Below are positions 1 through 49,806 of a stretch of 53,228 nt of DNA, in pieces; within the stretch, counting starts at the first letter, position 1, and each line of letters starts with the position of its first letter. The stretch covers positions 1-53,228 of IMG/VR virus record IMGVR_UViG_3300046694_000329; one strand, 5' to 3'. The notes under the pieces are model-generated. The model was not told the DNA's origin. It ran no database searches and saw only the letters and a program-made list of their open reading frames with translations. The translations under genes were made by a program, and so were the position numbers. The stretch comes from a virus.

Positions 1-630
1 AACCTCACCGGCGCCCGCCTCACCGACGCCCGCCTCGCCCGCGCCGACCTCACCGACGCCAACCTCACCGGCGCCGACCTCACCGGCGCCGACCTCACCG
101 GCGCCGACCTCACCCGCGCCAACCTCACCCGCGCCAACCTCACCGGCGCCCGCCTCGCCCGCGCCGACCTCACCGACGCCAACCTCACCGGCGCCGACCT
201 CACCGGCGCCGACCTCGCCCGCGCCGACCTCACCGGCGCCGACCTCACCGACGCCCGCCTCGCCCGCGCCGACCTCACCGACGCCAACCTCACCGGCGCC
301 GACCTCACCCGCGCCAAAGCGGACTTTCGCGCCGTCCTCGACGCCGCTCCGAACGAGGTCGCCGGGCTCTTGCTCGCACTCCGCGAGGGCCGCATCGATG
401 GCTCGCACTACGAGGGCGAGTGCGCCTGCCTCAAGGGCACGATCGCCAACGTGCGGCACTGCGACTACCGCGAGCTGGGCGAGGTCGATGTGCTGCAGCC
501 TGACAGCTCGAGCGCATCGGAGCGCCTGTTCATGGCGATCTCGCCCGGCCACCTGCCGAGCATCAACCCGGTGGCCAAGATCGTCGAGGGCTGGATCCTC
601 GAGTGGCAGGCGGAGCGAGGTGCCCAGTGA
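1..630 (+). CDS. Pentapeptide-repeat protein, C-terminal part (gene cut by window start)
   Basis: Frame 1 is open from the first base and stops at 628-630. The first ~100 codons are uninterrupted five-residue repeats of the A-(D/N/R)-L-(T/A)-(G/D/R) type, the signature of right-handed quadrilateral beta-helix pentapeptide proteins. After the repeats comes a unique region of ~105 residues rich in acidic residues, with a Cys pair (ECAC). The N-terminal half probably lies at 52859-53228. Pentapeptide proteins such as Qnr and MfpA mimic DNA and protect gyrase; whether this one does is unknown. Joining the two window ends directly would put them out of frame, so 3n+2 bases of repeat are probably missing. 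Confidence 0.85.
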
Positions 631-1676: not shown

Positions 1677-1837
1677 TGCTCCGACCACTCGACGCGATCG
1701 AACTCGAGGCTCTGTTGGCGCTGTGCGATGTCGAGCTGGCGCGCAATGAGATGGAGCCGCTGCAGATCTCCGGGCTGCGCCATCTGCGTCGGCGGGTCGA
1801 GGAGCACCTCGTCGCGGCGCGCGCGGCCCGCTGCTAG
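1676..1837 (+). CDS. Small helical protein (53 aa)
   Basis: ATG 1676 shares one base with the upstream TGA (TGATG). The 53-residue product is almost entirely Leu/Glu/Arg/Ala and predicted helical, ending in an Arg-Ala-rich tail and a terminal Cys. It is likely a small partner of the preceding protein. No family is recognised. Its last four bases overlap the end of the convergent minus-strand gene at 1834-2040. Confidence 0.5.
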   Translation: MLRPLDAIELEALLALCDVELARNEMEPLQISGLRHLRRRVEEHLVAARAARC

Positions 1838-2040
1838 ACGCAGGGACCGAAGCTGAGATCGCACGGGCCCATCGTCGGGCACGCGTCGGATGGACACGCG
1901 TACGGAGCTTGAGTGCTTCCAGTAGCACAGTCGGTGTTTTGGCTCGCGTCGGGGGACCCTCCGCGCACCTCCTGCATTCTGACTGTCTCCAGAGACCGGA
2001 GGGTTTCGCGATCGAGAATCAGCTTGGTGGTTTTCCGCAT
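1834..2040 (-). CDS. Orphan RiPP (class I lanthipeptide-like) precursor peptide, 68 aa
   Basis: This small minus-strand gene lies alone between rightward genes. Residues 1-28 have the form of a lanthipeptide leader: a basic start, then LDRETLRSL, then EVRGG ending in a Gly-Gly cleavage site. This matches the L-x-KETLR-x-L-x-V-x-GG leader pattern of class I lanthipeptides. The following 40-residue core is rich in Ser/Thr and holds five Cys, four of them in the last ~22 residues in short C-P and G-P-C repeats, as expected for thioether or other ring formation. A GGTGG run lies 5 bases before the ATG. No LanB/LanC/LanM-type enzyme, protease or transporter gene is seen in the window, so maturation would need enzymes supplied in trans. 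The leader resemblance is seen; a secreted, modified product is inferred. Confidence 0.7.
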   Translation of the reverse strand: MRKTTKLILDRETLRSLETVRMQEVRGGSPDASQNTDCATGSTQAPYACPSDACPTMGPCDLSFGPCV

Positions 2041-2121
2041 GTGGCCACCGTTACCCAGGGGCAGCGACCCGGCATCACGATGAGTCGGCCATCACGTTCC
2101 TTGCGCCCGATCGCGTGACCG

Positions 2122-2157
2122 TTGACTGCTAGTCAAATAGCGTGCTAGTTTTATAGT
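2122..2157 (+). promoter_or_regulatory. Promoter/operator upstream of gene 2181
   Basis: TTGACT (2122-2127) is the left arm of a perfect dyad with AGTCAA (2131-2136) across GCT, and can serve as a -35 box. TAGTTT (2146-2151, spacing 18) or TATAGT (2152-2157) could be the -10. GCTAGT occurs twice here. The gene downstream has a ribosome site GAGAGG (2166-2171). Confidence 0.45.
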
Positions 2158-2180
2158 GTCAACCCGAGAGGCACACACCC

Positions 2181-2522
2181 ATGACCGCCCTTCCGAAGCT
2201 GTACGACTACGAGGCCGACGTTGAGATCGTCGACCTGCCGGCCAACCCGGGCGTGCCGCGCGTCATCACGCGCGTGTACGACGACACCACACGCATGCCC
2301 GCACCGCCCCAGCTGGTGGTTGACCGCTTCCCGGTCACCATCGGGTTCACCCATGGCGCCCGCACTGAGATCATCGCGGACTCGATCGCCCTGGGCGAGC
2401 GCTGGATCATCGGACCGGCGCCCTACTCGGGCCCGACCGCCATCTGGTTGACCGCGCTCGAGCTGCCCTACCGCGACCAGGTTGCCGCGTGGCGCGCGCG
2501 AGGGCCGAGGGGGCTGACGTGA
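2181..2522 (+). CDS. Hypothetical protein (113 aa)
   Basis: ATG 2181 follows GAGAGG with 9 bases spacing. The protein has many beta-branched residues and prolines and looks like a compact beta-rich domain; no motif is recognised. It heads a three-gene run (2181, 2519, 2698) with GTGA overlaps, under the palindromic promoter region at 2122-2157. The unit may belong to regulated early functions, but no role can be assigned. Confidence 0.6.
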   Translation: MTALPKLYDYEADVEIVDLPANPGVPRVITRVYDDTTRMPAPPQLVVDRFPVTIGFTHGARTEIIADSIALGERWIIGPAPYSGPTAIWLTALELPYRDQVAAWRARGPRGLT

Positions 2523-2958: not shown

Positions 2959-3663
2959 ATGAAGCACGTCCTTGCGATTTTCTTCGTTTTGTCTGTAGCA
3001 TCTGCCGCCCTCGCGTCGCCTGTGGTAGGCGAGCAGGTCGTTCTCCGTACCGGGACCAGCCAGTATTTCCCCGGCACCGTCGCCAGCATCGTCTCGGGCT
3101 CGACGATCAACCTGGTGGCCCACACGGACGGATCGACGTGGGCGGACAACGGAACCCCCGGGTACATTCCGACCCGGACGTTCACCAGCATCGCGCTCGG
3201 CACCGGCGTCGGCCAGTACCAGCCGACCACGATCATCGCCGACACGGTGGCCGCCGTGGGCTACGCGCTCGAGTCCTACGTCGACGGTCTCACGCCGTCG
3301 TACCTGGCGCTGCCGGCTGCACCGTCCAGCTCGGGCATGACCATCGGCGGCTCGGGCGTGCAGATCCACGCCACGCGGCCGTCCCTGGTCGTCGTGCGCG
3401 GCACCGCGAGCATGACCTCGACCCTGATCGGCGGCCAAGCCTACACGGTCGAGCTGCGCTGCGATTCCAACGCGACGCCAACCACGGTGGTCGACGACGC
3501 GGCCGGCTCGCTCAATCAGGCGCTCGGGCTGTCGGTCACCCTGGTCGACGTCCAGCCCTGGAAGCTTGTCACGATGGCGCGCGGCGGCGACTACTGCCGG
3601 GTCGTGCAGAGCGCCGGCGCCGCGACTCTGGCGCTCACGGGTGCGCCGAGGCAGGCGCTCTAA
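2959..3663 (+). CDS. Exported protein with signal peptide (234 aa)
   Basis: Residues 1-20 form a classic signal peptide: a Lys-His start, a hydrophobic core and an Ala-x-Ala-type cleavage site (ALAS). The mature part is Thr/Ser/Gly-rich and beta-predicted, with several Thr-Gly and Tyr-Gln repeats in the first half and two Cys near residues 167 and 211. It could be a secreted or surface protein expressed by a prophage, or a lysis/envelope factor; no family is recognised. Initiation is odd, because no ribosome site precedes the ATG, which sits just after a perfect inverted repeat. It converges with the nuclease gene and overlaps its end by four bases. Confidence 0.65.
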   Translation: MKHVLAIFFVLSVASAALASPVVGEQVVLRTGTSQYFPGTVASIVSGSTINLVAHTDGSTWADNGTPGYIPTRTFTSIALGTGVGQYQPTTIIADTVAAVGYALESYVDGLTPSYLALPAAPSSSGMTIGGSGVQIHATRPSLVVVRGTASMTSTLIGGQAYTVELRCDSNATPTTVVDDAAGSLNQALGLSVTLVDVQPWKLVTMARGGDYCRVVQSAGAATLALTGAPRQAL

Positions 3664-5045
3664 CCACTCGGCAGTCGTTTCTTCTTCGGCACGTGCGGCT
3701 TGACTGCATCGGTGGTCGACAGCTCGATCCCGCCAAGCCGGTCCAGCTCGTCGATCAGCTTGTCGTAGGCGCCGGTCTTGTCCTTGCGCTCCATCTTCTC
3801 GCCTTCCTTGATGTGCGCCCTGCAGGCCGCGTACATCGCCGAGAGGGTGACGCTGATCTCGACCCGCTTGTCGCGCTCCTCGCGCCCGTAGCGCTTCTCG
3901 AGCAGCTCGGCGGCCAGCTGCCCGTTGACGCCGCGGCGCTCGGTGTGGAGGAGGCCGATCACGCGGCCGTCGGGCAACGGGATCTCCTCGAACGCCCCGA
4001 TCGAACAGATCTCCTGCTTGGCCCGGTCGACAACCGCCTCGATGGCCTCGAGCGCCATCCAGGCTTCGGCCGCGTTGCGCACGCTGAGCACGCCTGGCGT
4101 GAGCACGAGCGCGTGCTGCTCGACGCCGTTCTTGTCCGGCAGCGTTCCCGGTCGGACCCCCAGCTCGTACAGCTTCTCCGGCAGCTGGCGCACGAGGGCC
4201 ATCTTCGCAGGGCAGGCGCGGAACGCCGGGCAGTAGTCGCAGTGTGGCCCTTCGCGCGGCGCCGGAGCAGACGGAAGCGGGCTCTCTCCGCCGTCCTCCA
4301 GCCATTCCTCTACGCCGTTGACCACGACCGGATCCGTGATGGCGCGCATCGCCTCTGCGAGCTCGCGCGCGAACACGTCGAGGTCCCACTCGTTGACAGT
4401 CCGCCGCGCCTTGTGGTGGCCGCCGTTGTCGTGGATGTGGATCAGCTCGACGACCACATCGTCGCAGCCGTAGAGCGCTCGCACGCATAGCGCGCCGAGC
4501 AGAGTCTGGCCGTACATGTCCGGCGCGGGGTACTTCACGTGCCCGGATTTGTAGTCGCCCAGGTAGCCGCGCCGGAACGGCTCAAGGAGATCGCCCGGGG
4601 TCCATGTGTCGCTCTTGATGGTCCTTCCTTCGCTCTCCTGCACGCCCACCACGTCGTACGTGCCCGGCACCTCGCACGACCAGTCGACGCCGAGCGCGTC
4701 GTAGTCGACGCCGCCGTCCGGCCGGCGCGGAAGGTCCGGGCTGCGTCCGAGCTCGCGCGCCGTGTCCGCGCGCCAATTCCACGCGGTCGCGACCTCGCAA
4801 GCCAGGCCGACCGGGAGATCATCCAGATCGAGCGCCTCGAGCAGCGGCACGATCTCCTTGGGCGCCTCGGCGATCGCGGCCGGCTTGCCGATCGCCTTCA
4901 CGCGCTCGAGGAACGCGTGCACGCCCTTGCCCTTGTTGCGCGCAGGTTCGTGCTTGCCGTCCTGGCTCTCGGTCTGCGGCAGCACAGCGGAGGTCGGGCA
5001 CTTCCAGACGCGGTGAACGCGGGAGCCGGTTACTTGCAGCGTCAT
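3660..5045 (-). CDS. Cas4/RecB-like PD-(D/E)XK nuclease with Fe-S Cys motif (461 aa)
   Basis: Likely 5'-end-resecting exonuclease of the phage recombination module, working with the RecT-like protein upstream. Visible motifs are a lone Cys16; GxHxF with His43; the catalytic Asp131 (GTYD) and Asp164-Tyr-Lys166 of the PD-(D/E)XK core; a Gln-containing motif IV near residue 180; and C269-x2-C272-x5-C278, which with Cys16 would bind a 4Fe-4S cluster as in Cas4 and AddB. The C-terminal ~170 residues are helical and Lys/Glu rich. ATG 5045 overlaps the upstream stop (ATGA). A longer N-terminal extension to 5297 is rejected because it is a shadow of the neighbouring gene. The fold is confident; substrate polarity is inferred. 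Confidence 0.85.
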   Translation of the reverse strand: MTLQVTGSRVHRVWKCPTSAVLPQTESQDGKHEPARNKGKGVHAFLERVKAIGKPAAIAEAPKEIVPLLEALDLDDLPVGLACEVATAWNWRADTARELGRSPDLPRRPDGGVDYDALGVDWSCEVPGTYDVVGVQESEGRTIKSDTWTPGDLLEPFRRGYLGDYKSGHVKYPAPDMYGQTLLGALCVRALYGCDDVVVELIHIHDNGGHHKARRTVNEWDLDVFARELAEAMRAITDPVVVNGVEEWLEDGGESPLPSAPAPREGPHCDYCPAFRACPAKMALVRQLPEKLYELGVRPGTLPDKNGVEQHALVLTPGVLSVRNAAEAWMALEAIEAVVDRAKQEICSIGAFEEIPLPDGRVIGLLHTERRGVNGQLAAELLEKRYGREERDKRVEISVTLSAMYAACRAHIKEGEKMERKDKTGAYDKLIDELDRLGGIELSTTDAVKPHVPKKKRLPSG

Positions 5046-5602
5046 ACGCGCAGCGCCTTTGCCCACTCGGCCCACGTCTGGTCCGTCCGCAGTTCCACGT
5101 CGCTCGGCATGTACGCGCGGTCCCCGGTCATGTCGTAGACGAGGAATTCCGGGATCTGCCCGATCGAAGGCGCCAAACTGAACCACTCGGATCCGCCCAT
5201 CACCCGATGGGTTCCATGTCGCATCTCGCGGTCCATCCCGCTCGAGATCCGCGGCCCGCACAGCACGATCCCGTCGCAGCGCTCGATCGTGGCGCACGCG
5301 TCGACGAAACCCGCCTCGCGCTGCGACGGGTCTGCGTCGTCGTCACCCGCCAGCACGCTCGCGATCCACGGCGCGATGAACGTGGTCTCCGGGAAGCTCT
5401 TGCGCAGCCACGCGAGCCATCGCATCGCGCGCTGGAGATTGAGCTTGAGCGCAGCCTTCACGCGATCGACCTCCGATACTGGATGTGCGATGTCTGGCTC
5501 GTATTCGCTGCGCCCTCGCTCAATGGTTTCATAGGGAATGTCCGAGATCTCCTCCTCGGTCGGCGCCAAGCAGTGGGCGACGTACAGAACGGCGCGACTC
5601 AT
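5042..5602 (-). CDS. Nucleoside 2-deoxyribosyltransferase-like / DUF4406-type protein (186 aa)
   Basis: The sequence has the layout of small phage proteins related to nucleoside deoxyribosyltransferases and SLOG-like Rossmann domains: a beta-strand start (VLYVAHCL), a helical middle with conserved WLAWLRKSFP, then FIAPW, a DDDADPSQREAG segment and IERCDGIVLCG, followed by a Ser-Gly-Met loop. It may bind or sense nucleotides, with role unknown. It is translationally coupled to both neighbours (ATGA overlaps). The gene at 14307-14714 looks like a divergent paralogue, with an ALWF/KD segment, IERCDVLIVVGD and a His-acid-rich end. Confidence 0.7.
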   Translation of the reverse strand: MSRAVLYVAHCLAPTEEEISDIPYETIERGRSEYEPDIAHPVSEVDRVKAALKLNLQRAMRWLAWLRKSFPETTFIAPWIASVLAGDDDADPSQREAGFVDACATIERCDGIVLCGPRISSGMDREMRHGTHRVMGGSEWFSLAPSIGQIPEFLVYDMTGDRAYMPSDVELRTDQTWAEWAKALRV

Positions 5603-15161: not shown

Positions 15162-15205
15162 CTTGAGTCAAGCATGTTGACTTTGATGCAATCTGCATCT
15201 ACGGT
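15162..15205 (+). promoter_or_regulatory. Promoter with internal operator upstream of RHH-like gene
   Basis: TTGACT (15177-15182) and TACGGT (15200-15205) are spaced by 17 bases. Between them lies the perfect dyad GATGCA-ATC-TGCATC (15185-15199), and just upstream CTTGAGTCAAG (15162-15172) is an 11-bp palindrome. The -10 is 6 bases from the ATG at 15212 with no ribosome site, which suggests a leaderless, self-repressed gene. Confidence 0.55.
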
Positions 15206-46218: not shown

Positions 46219-46523
46219 CAGTGCCCTCCGCCGCTCGCCCTGATCGCATCCCTGCCCTCGGCAAATCCGATTAGATCCCCCGAGGAGTTCCTGAGCTGTC
46301 GGTATGGCTTGCCGTGGAAGAAAATAGCGACCTGACGGAGTCCAGTCTTGTACTTGCCGTCATTGGCCTCGATGGCAGCATCACGGTACGTGTCGAATTC
46401 CCCAACCTTAGACCACTTGGTCCATCTGACTGCATTGCGCCATCCGCCGCGGTCGTAGACCTTCGTGGCGCGCGTCATCGAGCGAAACCGAACGTGAAAT
46501 TTACTGATCTTGCTCCAACTCAT
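46215..46523 (-). CDS. Small basic protein (102 aa)
   Basis: ATG 46523 overlaps the repressor stop (ATGA). It is rich in Trp, Lys, Arg and Tyr in a mixed strand-helix sequence (GKYKTGLRQVAIFFHGKPYRQLRNSS) and ends in GGGHW. It is the first gene coupled to the repressor and may be an anti-repressor or DNA-binding partner, but this is only positional. Confidence 0.55.
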   Translation of the reverse strand: MSWSKISKFHVRFRSMTRATKVYDRGGWRNAVRWTKWSKVGEFDTYRDAAIEANDGKYKTGLRQVAIFFHGKPYRQLRNSSGDLIGFAEGRDAIRASGGGHW

Positions 46524-47080
46524 GGTGTCGCCCCGTTCTCGGGCGTGGACTCGCGCGCCTCCTCGAGCCTGGTCTGCAGCGCGGCGATGGAGGCGCTCGT
46601 CTTTTCGATCGTGGTGAAGGTCTCGAGCCCGAGGTTCTCGAGGGCCATGCAGACCTCGCACGGCTCGTCCTCGTCGAAGGAGCATTTGCAGACCCTGCCC
46701 GGATACAACTCGTGCAGGGCCTCGATGCAAACGCCGAGGACCTCGGCGAGTGAGCGAAAGACCCGGTCGAAGTGTTTCGACTTCGAGCGCAGGCGGTCCT
46801 GCCTCTGCCAGTTCTTGCGCCGCTTCTCGCCGTAGGCCGACAGCTCTGTTCCCTCCCACGCCTTTCGTAGCTCGGCGGCCCGGTCGGGCGGTAAGGCGTA
46901 GAACTCGGCGATCCGGGCGACCCTATCCAGGCCGATGACCCTAAAGGGGCTGGACTCCATATTGCCGACGGTGGACAGCTTCACCCCGATCCCGTTGGCT
47001 ACTTCGCGCTGTTTGTAACGATTTTGTACTCTCAACTCTCGGCAAATCTTACCGAACTCTGTTTTTTGCGGTGATCCCAT
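46520..47080 (-). CDS. XRE-family transcription regulator/repressor with C-terminal Cys cluster (186 aa)
   Basis: Residues ~9-65 are an XRE helix-turn-helix: ICRELRVQNRYKQREVANGIGVKLSTVGNMESS with the recognition helix around VKLSTVGN. The rest is a charged helical region, with C131-x-C133 and C141-x2-C144 in an acidic loop that could bind zinc or act as a redox switch. It begins the leftward early operon and reads from a TATAGT box only 8 bases from the ATG, so its mRNA appears leaderless, as for lambda cI from PRM. It is the best candidate for the lysogeny repressor, regulating the palindrome-rich region beside it. Confidence 0.7.
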   Translation of the reverse strand: MGSPQKTEFGKICRELRVQNRYKQREVANGIGVKLSTVGNMESSPFRVIGLDRVARIAEFYALPPDRAAELRKAWEGTELSAYGEKRRKNWQRQDRLRSKSKHFDRVFRSLAEVLGVCIEALHELYPGRVCKCSFDEDEPCEVCMALENLGLETFTTIEKTSASIAALQTRLEEARESTPENGATP

Positions 47081-49420: not shown

Positions 49421-49461
49421 GGGCCTTGCGCCCAATCGAGCGCTGGATTCACGCCAGCGCT
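49421..49461 (+). other. Two-hairpin intergenic element, copy A
   Basis: GGGC-CTTGC-GCCC, then AATCG and the hairpin AGCGCTGG/CCAGCGCT around ATTCACG. It starts 8 bases after the stop of gene 49219 and precedes the ribosome site AGGAG of gene 49495. Confidence 0.6.
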
Positions 49462-49494
49462 GGACCAACGCAAGTACCACACCCAGGAGCCACC

Positions 49495-49806
49495 ATGTCC
49501 GCCCTTTGTGCCCCGTCGACCGTCTCCGCACTGCCCATCATCCGCCCGATCGCCGACTACGAGGCCGCGTTCAACGCGCGGCGCCGCCAGCTGGGCATCC
49601 TCGTCGAGCTCGCCACTGCCAGCAAGCGCGCCTCGCTCCTGGACCGCATCCTGGCCCTGTTCGCCAAGCCGGCGCCGCTCGTCGTGCCCTACCGCACCGA
49701 GCAACCCCGCGACGGCCGTGGCCGCTTCCTGTCCAACGCGTGGCGGCGCCAGGCGGAGGCCCTCACCGAGTCCGATCTGCGCTGGTTCCGTAGCCCGATA
49801 GCCTAG
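49495..49806 (+). CDS. Hypothetical protein (103 aa)
   Basis: ATG 49495 has AGGAG 5 bases upstream. The protein is helical in the middle (ADYEAAFNARRRQLGILVELATASKRASLLDRIL) and basic at the end (GRGRFLSNAWRRQ). No family is recognised. Confidence 0.5.
   Translation: MSALCAPSTVSALPIIRPIADYEAAFNARRRQLGILVELATASKRASLLDRILALFAKPAPLVVPYRTEQPRDGRGRFLSNAWRRQAEALTESDLRWFRSPIA

Follow-up and report, generated by a model that had tools for sequence, protein, structure and literature searches.

The leaders of class I lanthipeptide precursors from Bacteroidetes carry the motif LxLxKx5L, often end in GG and are found together with a C39 protease (Walker et al., PMC7268733). These precursors, represented by the leader model NF038153, have the same leader motif and spacing, the same GG end and the same kind of variable core rich in Cys, Ser and Thr as a set of phage peptides that includes the product of a small gene in the 53,228-base IMG/VR virus record analysed here (the whole stretch, hereafter the window). 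The phage peptides differ from them in their occurrence in phages, mostly GC-rich, and in an ETIR/ETLR consensus with R for K; moreover, the window peptide scores under the cut-off of the model and LanC was not found in cis. The same general GG-leader design is seen in TIGR04149 (GG_sam_targ_CFB), which covers precursors encoded beside SPASM/radical SAM maturases, but this model finds nothing in the window, its peptide included, and no radical SAM protein scores above cut-off. Sublancin 168, a glycocin, is a host-conversion RiPP of the Bacillus prophage SPbeta (PMC8270828) and resembles the present case in that a phage carries the RiPP precursor; its leader is removed during export and it benefits the lysogen. 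However, SPbeta also encodes the transferase, oxidoreductases, exporter and immunity gene (PMC8270828), whereas only a precursor is present here. A link to phage infection is also shared with the intracellular anti-phage lanthipeptides of Streptomyces (reviewed in PMC12360287). Those are host-encoded in complete gene clusters, unlike the genes described below. In prochlorosin-type systems, one leader type is joined to many unrelated cores and the precursors are encoded away from the enzyme; these systems differ from the phage peptides in being class II, cyanobacterial and host-encoded. The literature, of which coverage was incomplete, yielded no account of RiPP genes that recur in phages as precursors alone.

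The small gene of the window (Table 1) is probably an orphan GG-leader RiPP precursor of the 'LxLxxETIRxL...GG' kind, captured as a moron in a hypervariable early region and matured in trans by the host. The host would already own a maturation system that recognises the leader and tolerates almost any Cys/Ser/Thr-rich core, and the phage would contribute only a new substrate, the core of which would be modified by host enzymes. A GG-cleaving protease/transporter of the host would strip the leader, and the product could benefit the phage or the lysogen, for instance by acting on bacterial competitors or on superinfecting phages.

The ORF starts with ATG, stops with TAG and encodes MRKTTKLILDRETLRSLETVRMQEVRGG followed by SPDASQNTDCATGSTQAPYACPSDACPTMGPCDLSFGPCV. 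A sequence-only reading of the window had described a leader with a KETLR-type element and a GG end, joined to a 40-residue Ser/Thr-rich core with five Cys, and the ORF lies at exactly the position given for it. Cys amounts to 1.3% across the predicted genes of the window, and the probability of at least five Cys in 40 aa, as in this core, is ~1.6e-4; the Ser/Thr and Cys of the core are compatible, by composition only, with (methyl)lanthionines. A possible weak ribosome site, GGTGG, lies 4 nt 5' of the ATG. The ORF stands alone on the minus strand, with a 4-nt overlap into the end of an ORF on the plus strand. Its GC3 is 0.71 and its codon bias is weaker than in the main genes of the phage, so that coding statistics alone are insufficient to call it. 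It is a real gene, and is taken as one because the same build recurs in other phages.

Table 1. Coordinates in the window of the precursor gene, its parts and the surrounding features.
Feature	Position	Strand	Evidence or remark
Orphan GG-leader precursor peptide gene	1834..2040	-	68 aa; ORF, NF038153 as sole family match, A5 profile
Leader, 28 aa, MRKTTKLILDRETLRSLETVRMQEVRGG	1957..2040	-	fits LxLx[K/R]x5L...GG; conserved A5 columns L, L, E/D, T, R, L
Core, 40 aa, 5 Cys and 9 Ser/Thr	1837..1956	-	composition
Divergent intergenic region	2041..2180	.	plus-strand promoter-like site 2130-2157 (consensus match only)
113-aa protein of unknown function	2181..2522	+	57%-identical homologue abuts the peptide in G004
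RecB-like phage exonuclease, bordering the hypervariable region on one side	3660..5297	-	phrog_69, 1.1e-11; kept in 9/9 near-complete relatives
HTH repressor-like protein, bordering the hypervariable region on the other side	46520..47080	-	PF01381, 8.4e-7; synteny

The single NCBIfam match for the window peptide is NF038153 lant_leader_L1a (16.6 bits, E 0.0067), and a six-frame search of the window record with this model gives 17.2 bits (E 4.7e-4), both below its curated cut-off of 22 bits; a Pfam search of the peptide returned no match. The leader, LILDRETLRSL...RGG, agrees with the LxLxKx5L-GG motif, with R replacing K. The sequence-only reading had assigned the peptide to the class I lanthipeptides and proposed a search with lanthipeptide leader HMMs. 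The leader motif and the Ser/Thr/Cys core fit this assignment and the search does return NF038153, but at 16.6-17.2 bits, under the 22 demanded, and with LanC not found in cis. With the cut-off missed and no cyclase found in cis, a strict classification would keep the gene out of the class I lanthipeptides; it is better described as a putative precursor of the GG-leader RiPP kind. The leader family and the Ser/Thr and Cys residues suggest lanthionine chemistry. Core chemistry is nevertheless not fixed as lanthionine, because one of the phage peptides described below (in G023) is equally close to the radical SAM RiPP leader model.

The window is a myophage sequence, with genes for tail sheath, tape measure, major head protein, portal, TerL, RecT, exonuclease, primase and DnaB; these structural, packaging and replication functions uphold the earlier claim that the peptide belongs to a phage genome. 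Its MCP is present in 17 IMG/VR contigs, nine of which are near-complete relatives with shared gene order, and further scans with the MCP, the nuclease and gene 2181-2522 returned only this same phage group. The peptide lies in a hypervariable stretch running from the HTH repressor, through the contig ends, to the RecB-like exonuclease. Homologues of window genes 370-630, 603-791 and 2181-2522 occur in G009 and G004, which marks the neighbourhood of the peptide as phage territory. Within the group, the peptide is present in three of ten genomes, a variable presence between conserved phage genes that is typical of a moron or accessory gene; it was not found in the other seven, including with a profile (A5) built from 12 phage peptides, the window peptide among them. 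A G006 match to NF038153 at 10.9 bits, unconfirmed by this profile, was treated as chance. The gene had also been described as a moron-like element on the opposite strand. Its accessory, mobile location and its isolation on the minus strand of the window agree with this, but the opposite strand is not general: the equivalents in G004 and G012 run with the neighbouring early genes, and the window copy is inverted relative to both.

In the interval that separates the peptide from gene 2181-2522, positions 2122-2136 form a perfect palindrome, TTGACTGCTAGTCAA, a possible operator (consensus match only); an imperfect second copy occurs at 15177-15191. Minus-strand promoter and terminator consensus sequences, which may not be those of the host, gave no match for 1834-2040. 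An AlphaFold model of the 2181-2522 product, considered as a possible leader-binding domain, was of low confidence (pLDDT 50) and too poor to use. At the contig end, window positions 1-320 hold 15-nt tandem repeats encoding a pentapeptide-repeat stretch.

The two other carriers in the group, G004 and G012, were found by searching the related phages with NF038153; in each, a similarly built peptide is encoded next to the exonuclease, within the accessory region that also holds the window gene. The G004 peptide consists of MKKTKVARLALTSDTIRDLSAAQLRVVVGG and a 3-Cys core, that of G012 of (V/M)KKTLSLRREVIRSMTARELKMAAGG and a 6-Cys core, and NF038153 is the top family match of each (17.6 and 15.4 bits, respectively). 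From the first Leu to GG, the leaders of the window, G004 and G012 peptides align without gaps over 22 residues, and the cores are unrelated. The homologue of window gene 2181-2522 precedes the G004 peptide. The G012 peptide begins with a GTG that overlaps (GTGA) the stop codon of a 488-aa gene; the product of this gene (L022, 32-1498) has a Cys-rich C-terminus and no Pfam match.

The same build is also found outside this group. A degenerate DNA pattern for the leader and GG only (L-x-L-x2-[ED]-T-[LIM]-R-x-[LIM]-x4-[hydrophobic]-x2-[VAIT]-x-GG), run over all of IMG/VR, gave eight matches in eight contigs, namely G004 and G018-G024, the last being a close variant of G019. In 8/8, a start (M next to K/R) lies shortly upstream, a stop follows 22-43 codons past GG, and the core contains Cys, none of which the pattern demands. 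A stricter ETLR codon pattern hit four viral contigs, none with a leader peptide. Phage markers, including baseplate J, were confirmed in every group of pattern-matched contigs. PHROGs assigned a virion protein and head protease in G018; baseplate, tail fibre and head protease in G019; major head protein, RecT and tail in G020; TerL and major head protein in G021; portal and DnaB in G022; and a replication initiator in G023.

Some of these phages carry more than one precursor. In G022, NF038153 detects a second peptide (65144-65212), at 22.9 bits, above the cut-off, in six-frame search and at 21.7 bits in another search; the model also detects a second peptide in G023. The latter is the only match of TIGR04149, at 13.8-14.6 bits (cut-off 25), slightly above its NF038153 score, and for most of the phage peptides NF038153 is the best family match. 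The A5 profile recovered two further intact precursors outside its training set, at 57859-58038 in G023 (E 2e-8) and 49427-49588 in G020 (E 3e-6). The total is 14 peptides in ten phage contigs, all metagenomic, of which G020, G022 and G023 hold two, two and three, respectively. This recurrence in at least ten phage contigs, with NF038153 as the only NCBIfam match of the window peptide, sustains the idea of a leader-plus-core precursor. Direct homologues of the 68-aa peptide were found neither in cultured phages nor in IMG/VR, GTDB contigs or plasmids. Searches of plasmids and cultured phages with the peptide and the consensus leader gave noise or nothing, and a prophage/host search of GTDB contigs with the MCP alignment gave nothing; neither it nor the GTDB search with the peptide yielded a bacterial relative by which to judge the myxobacterial or planctomycete hosts suggested in the sequence-only reading.

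Conservation is confined to the leader: in the A5 alignment, its L, L and R are invariant and its E, T and L near-invariant, whereas the core has no conserved positions. Cys accounts for 1 of 349 leader residues, compared with 53 of 418 core residues (12.7%). Between G019 and G024, the leader has five synonymous and two non-synonymous codon changes and the core one synonymous and five non-synonymous, the single core Cys being preserved through a synonymous change. With 13 codons and a one-sided exact p of ~0.08 (hand calculation), the numbers are small, but the contrast is what a recognised leader joined to a free core would show.

Several other explanations were considered. That the ORF resembles a leader by chance is strongly disfavoured and highly improbable: its weak codon bias and sub-threshold profile score, taken alone, would allow it, but the LxLx[K/R]x5L...GG motif with at least three Cys in a short frame, present once in the window, occurs in 0 of 150 Markov-simulated windows, and peptides built alike occur in two relatives, in the same region, as well as in seven more phage contigs. 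It is also unlikely that the gene is a neutral passenger, a host precursor gene recently acquired by transduction or illegitimate recombination and functionless for the phage. Its patchy presence in the group (3/10), a GC3 below that of the phage genes and an orientation differing from G004 and G012 would fit recent arrival. Yet intact frames are present independently in unrelated phages, some with several copies, the leaders show a synonymous bias, and functionless genes would not be expected to last so often in phage genomes.

Two further alternatives accept a function and assign it differently. A decoy or inhibitor, in which the leader alone binds host RiPP enzymes and blocks the host's own product while the core is irrelevant, would account for a conserved leader and a core free to vary across phages, and anti-phage lanthipeptides against which it could be directed exist (PMC12360287). 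We consider it improbable: the cores keep their high Cys content and their Ser/Thr, three phages have more than one kind of core, for which a decoy made of the leader alone would have no use, and evidence for anti-phage lanthipeptides in the hosts is absent. There is likewise little probability that the product is an unmodified or disulfide-bonded bacteriocin or toxin, its GG leader serving only for delivery to a C39 transporter of the host, and neither dehydratase nor cyclase acting on it. GG leaders double as C39 export signals, those of the LxLxKx5L-GG type are linked with C39 proteases (PMC7268733), and core Cys could pair; however, the longer LxLxxETIRxL element belongs to the lanthipeptide leader family model, and the odd Cys numbers of several cores (5, 3, 1) speak against pure disulfides.

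Maturation in trans, as the preferred reading of an orphan precursor has it, is consistent with the searches for maturation genes in cis. LanC (PF05147) had no match in the window, the phage group or G018-G024, with a working positive control. The searches for LanB and C39 covered the window and the group: Peptidase_C39 (PF03412) had no match, with the control matching in eight genomes, and LanB (PF04738) had none either, which is the weaker result because no control genome matched. The earlier claim that processing genes are missing in cis agrees with the LanC and C39 blanks, their controls working, and with the LanB blank, its control silent. Radical SAM proteins (PF04055) were not found in the window or the phage group, nor above cut-off in any contig searched; only G018 has a sub-cut-off radical SAM-like phage protein, phrog_9298. 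This protein (L094, 8340-9781), with a CX3CX2C motif, is encoded divergently beside the WD40-peptide pair described below and could act as a maturase or represent a common phage gene.

More broadly, and more tentatively, it seems possible that several unrelated phage lineages carry RiPP precursors only, often several, with a conserved leader and interchangeable cores, sometimes in a WD40 or lipoprotein cassette, and that host enzymes convert these into peptides with which competition, lysogeny or superinfection is reshaped. If so, they would form a viral natural-product system without biosynthetic enzymes of its own, and precursor-only phages would parasitise or enrich the peptide-natural-product pathways of their hosts in trans. 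The leader DNA pattern offers a simple search of viromes for such genes that needs no enzyme marker.

As to the cassettes, a WD40 gene lies directly upstream of the peptide in G018, G019 and G024. Between G019 (L092, 141-1671) and G024 (L107, 25-787), this gene differs at 116 of 579 nt and the peptide gene at 17 of 174, whereas the next gene differs at only 3 of 459. Because the first two diverge strongly and the next gene is near-identical, the WD40-peptide cassette seems to have been exchanged as a unit. In G020 and G023 the position directly upstream of the peptide is taken by a small lipoprotein-like gene, with 30% identity between the two, and both these genes contain Cys (L099, 10684-11022, and L106, 2988-3335, respectively). 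Other neighbours differ from contig to contig. Just 3' of the G018 peptide lies a gene for an erythromycin-esterase-family protein (PF05139) with a signal-like start (L094, 6503-8284), and directly 3' of the highest-scoring leader peptide, in G022, one for an SPFH/Band 7 membrane protein (PF01145; L104, 8827-9855). G023 also encodes a phage protein of 1340 aa that contains an ADP-ribosyltransferase domain (PF03496, 5e-10; L106, 8961-12983), perhaps a virion-borne host-modifying enzyme.
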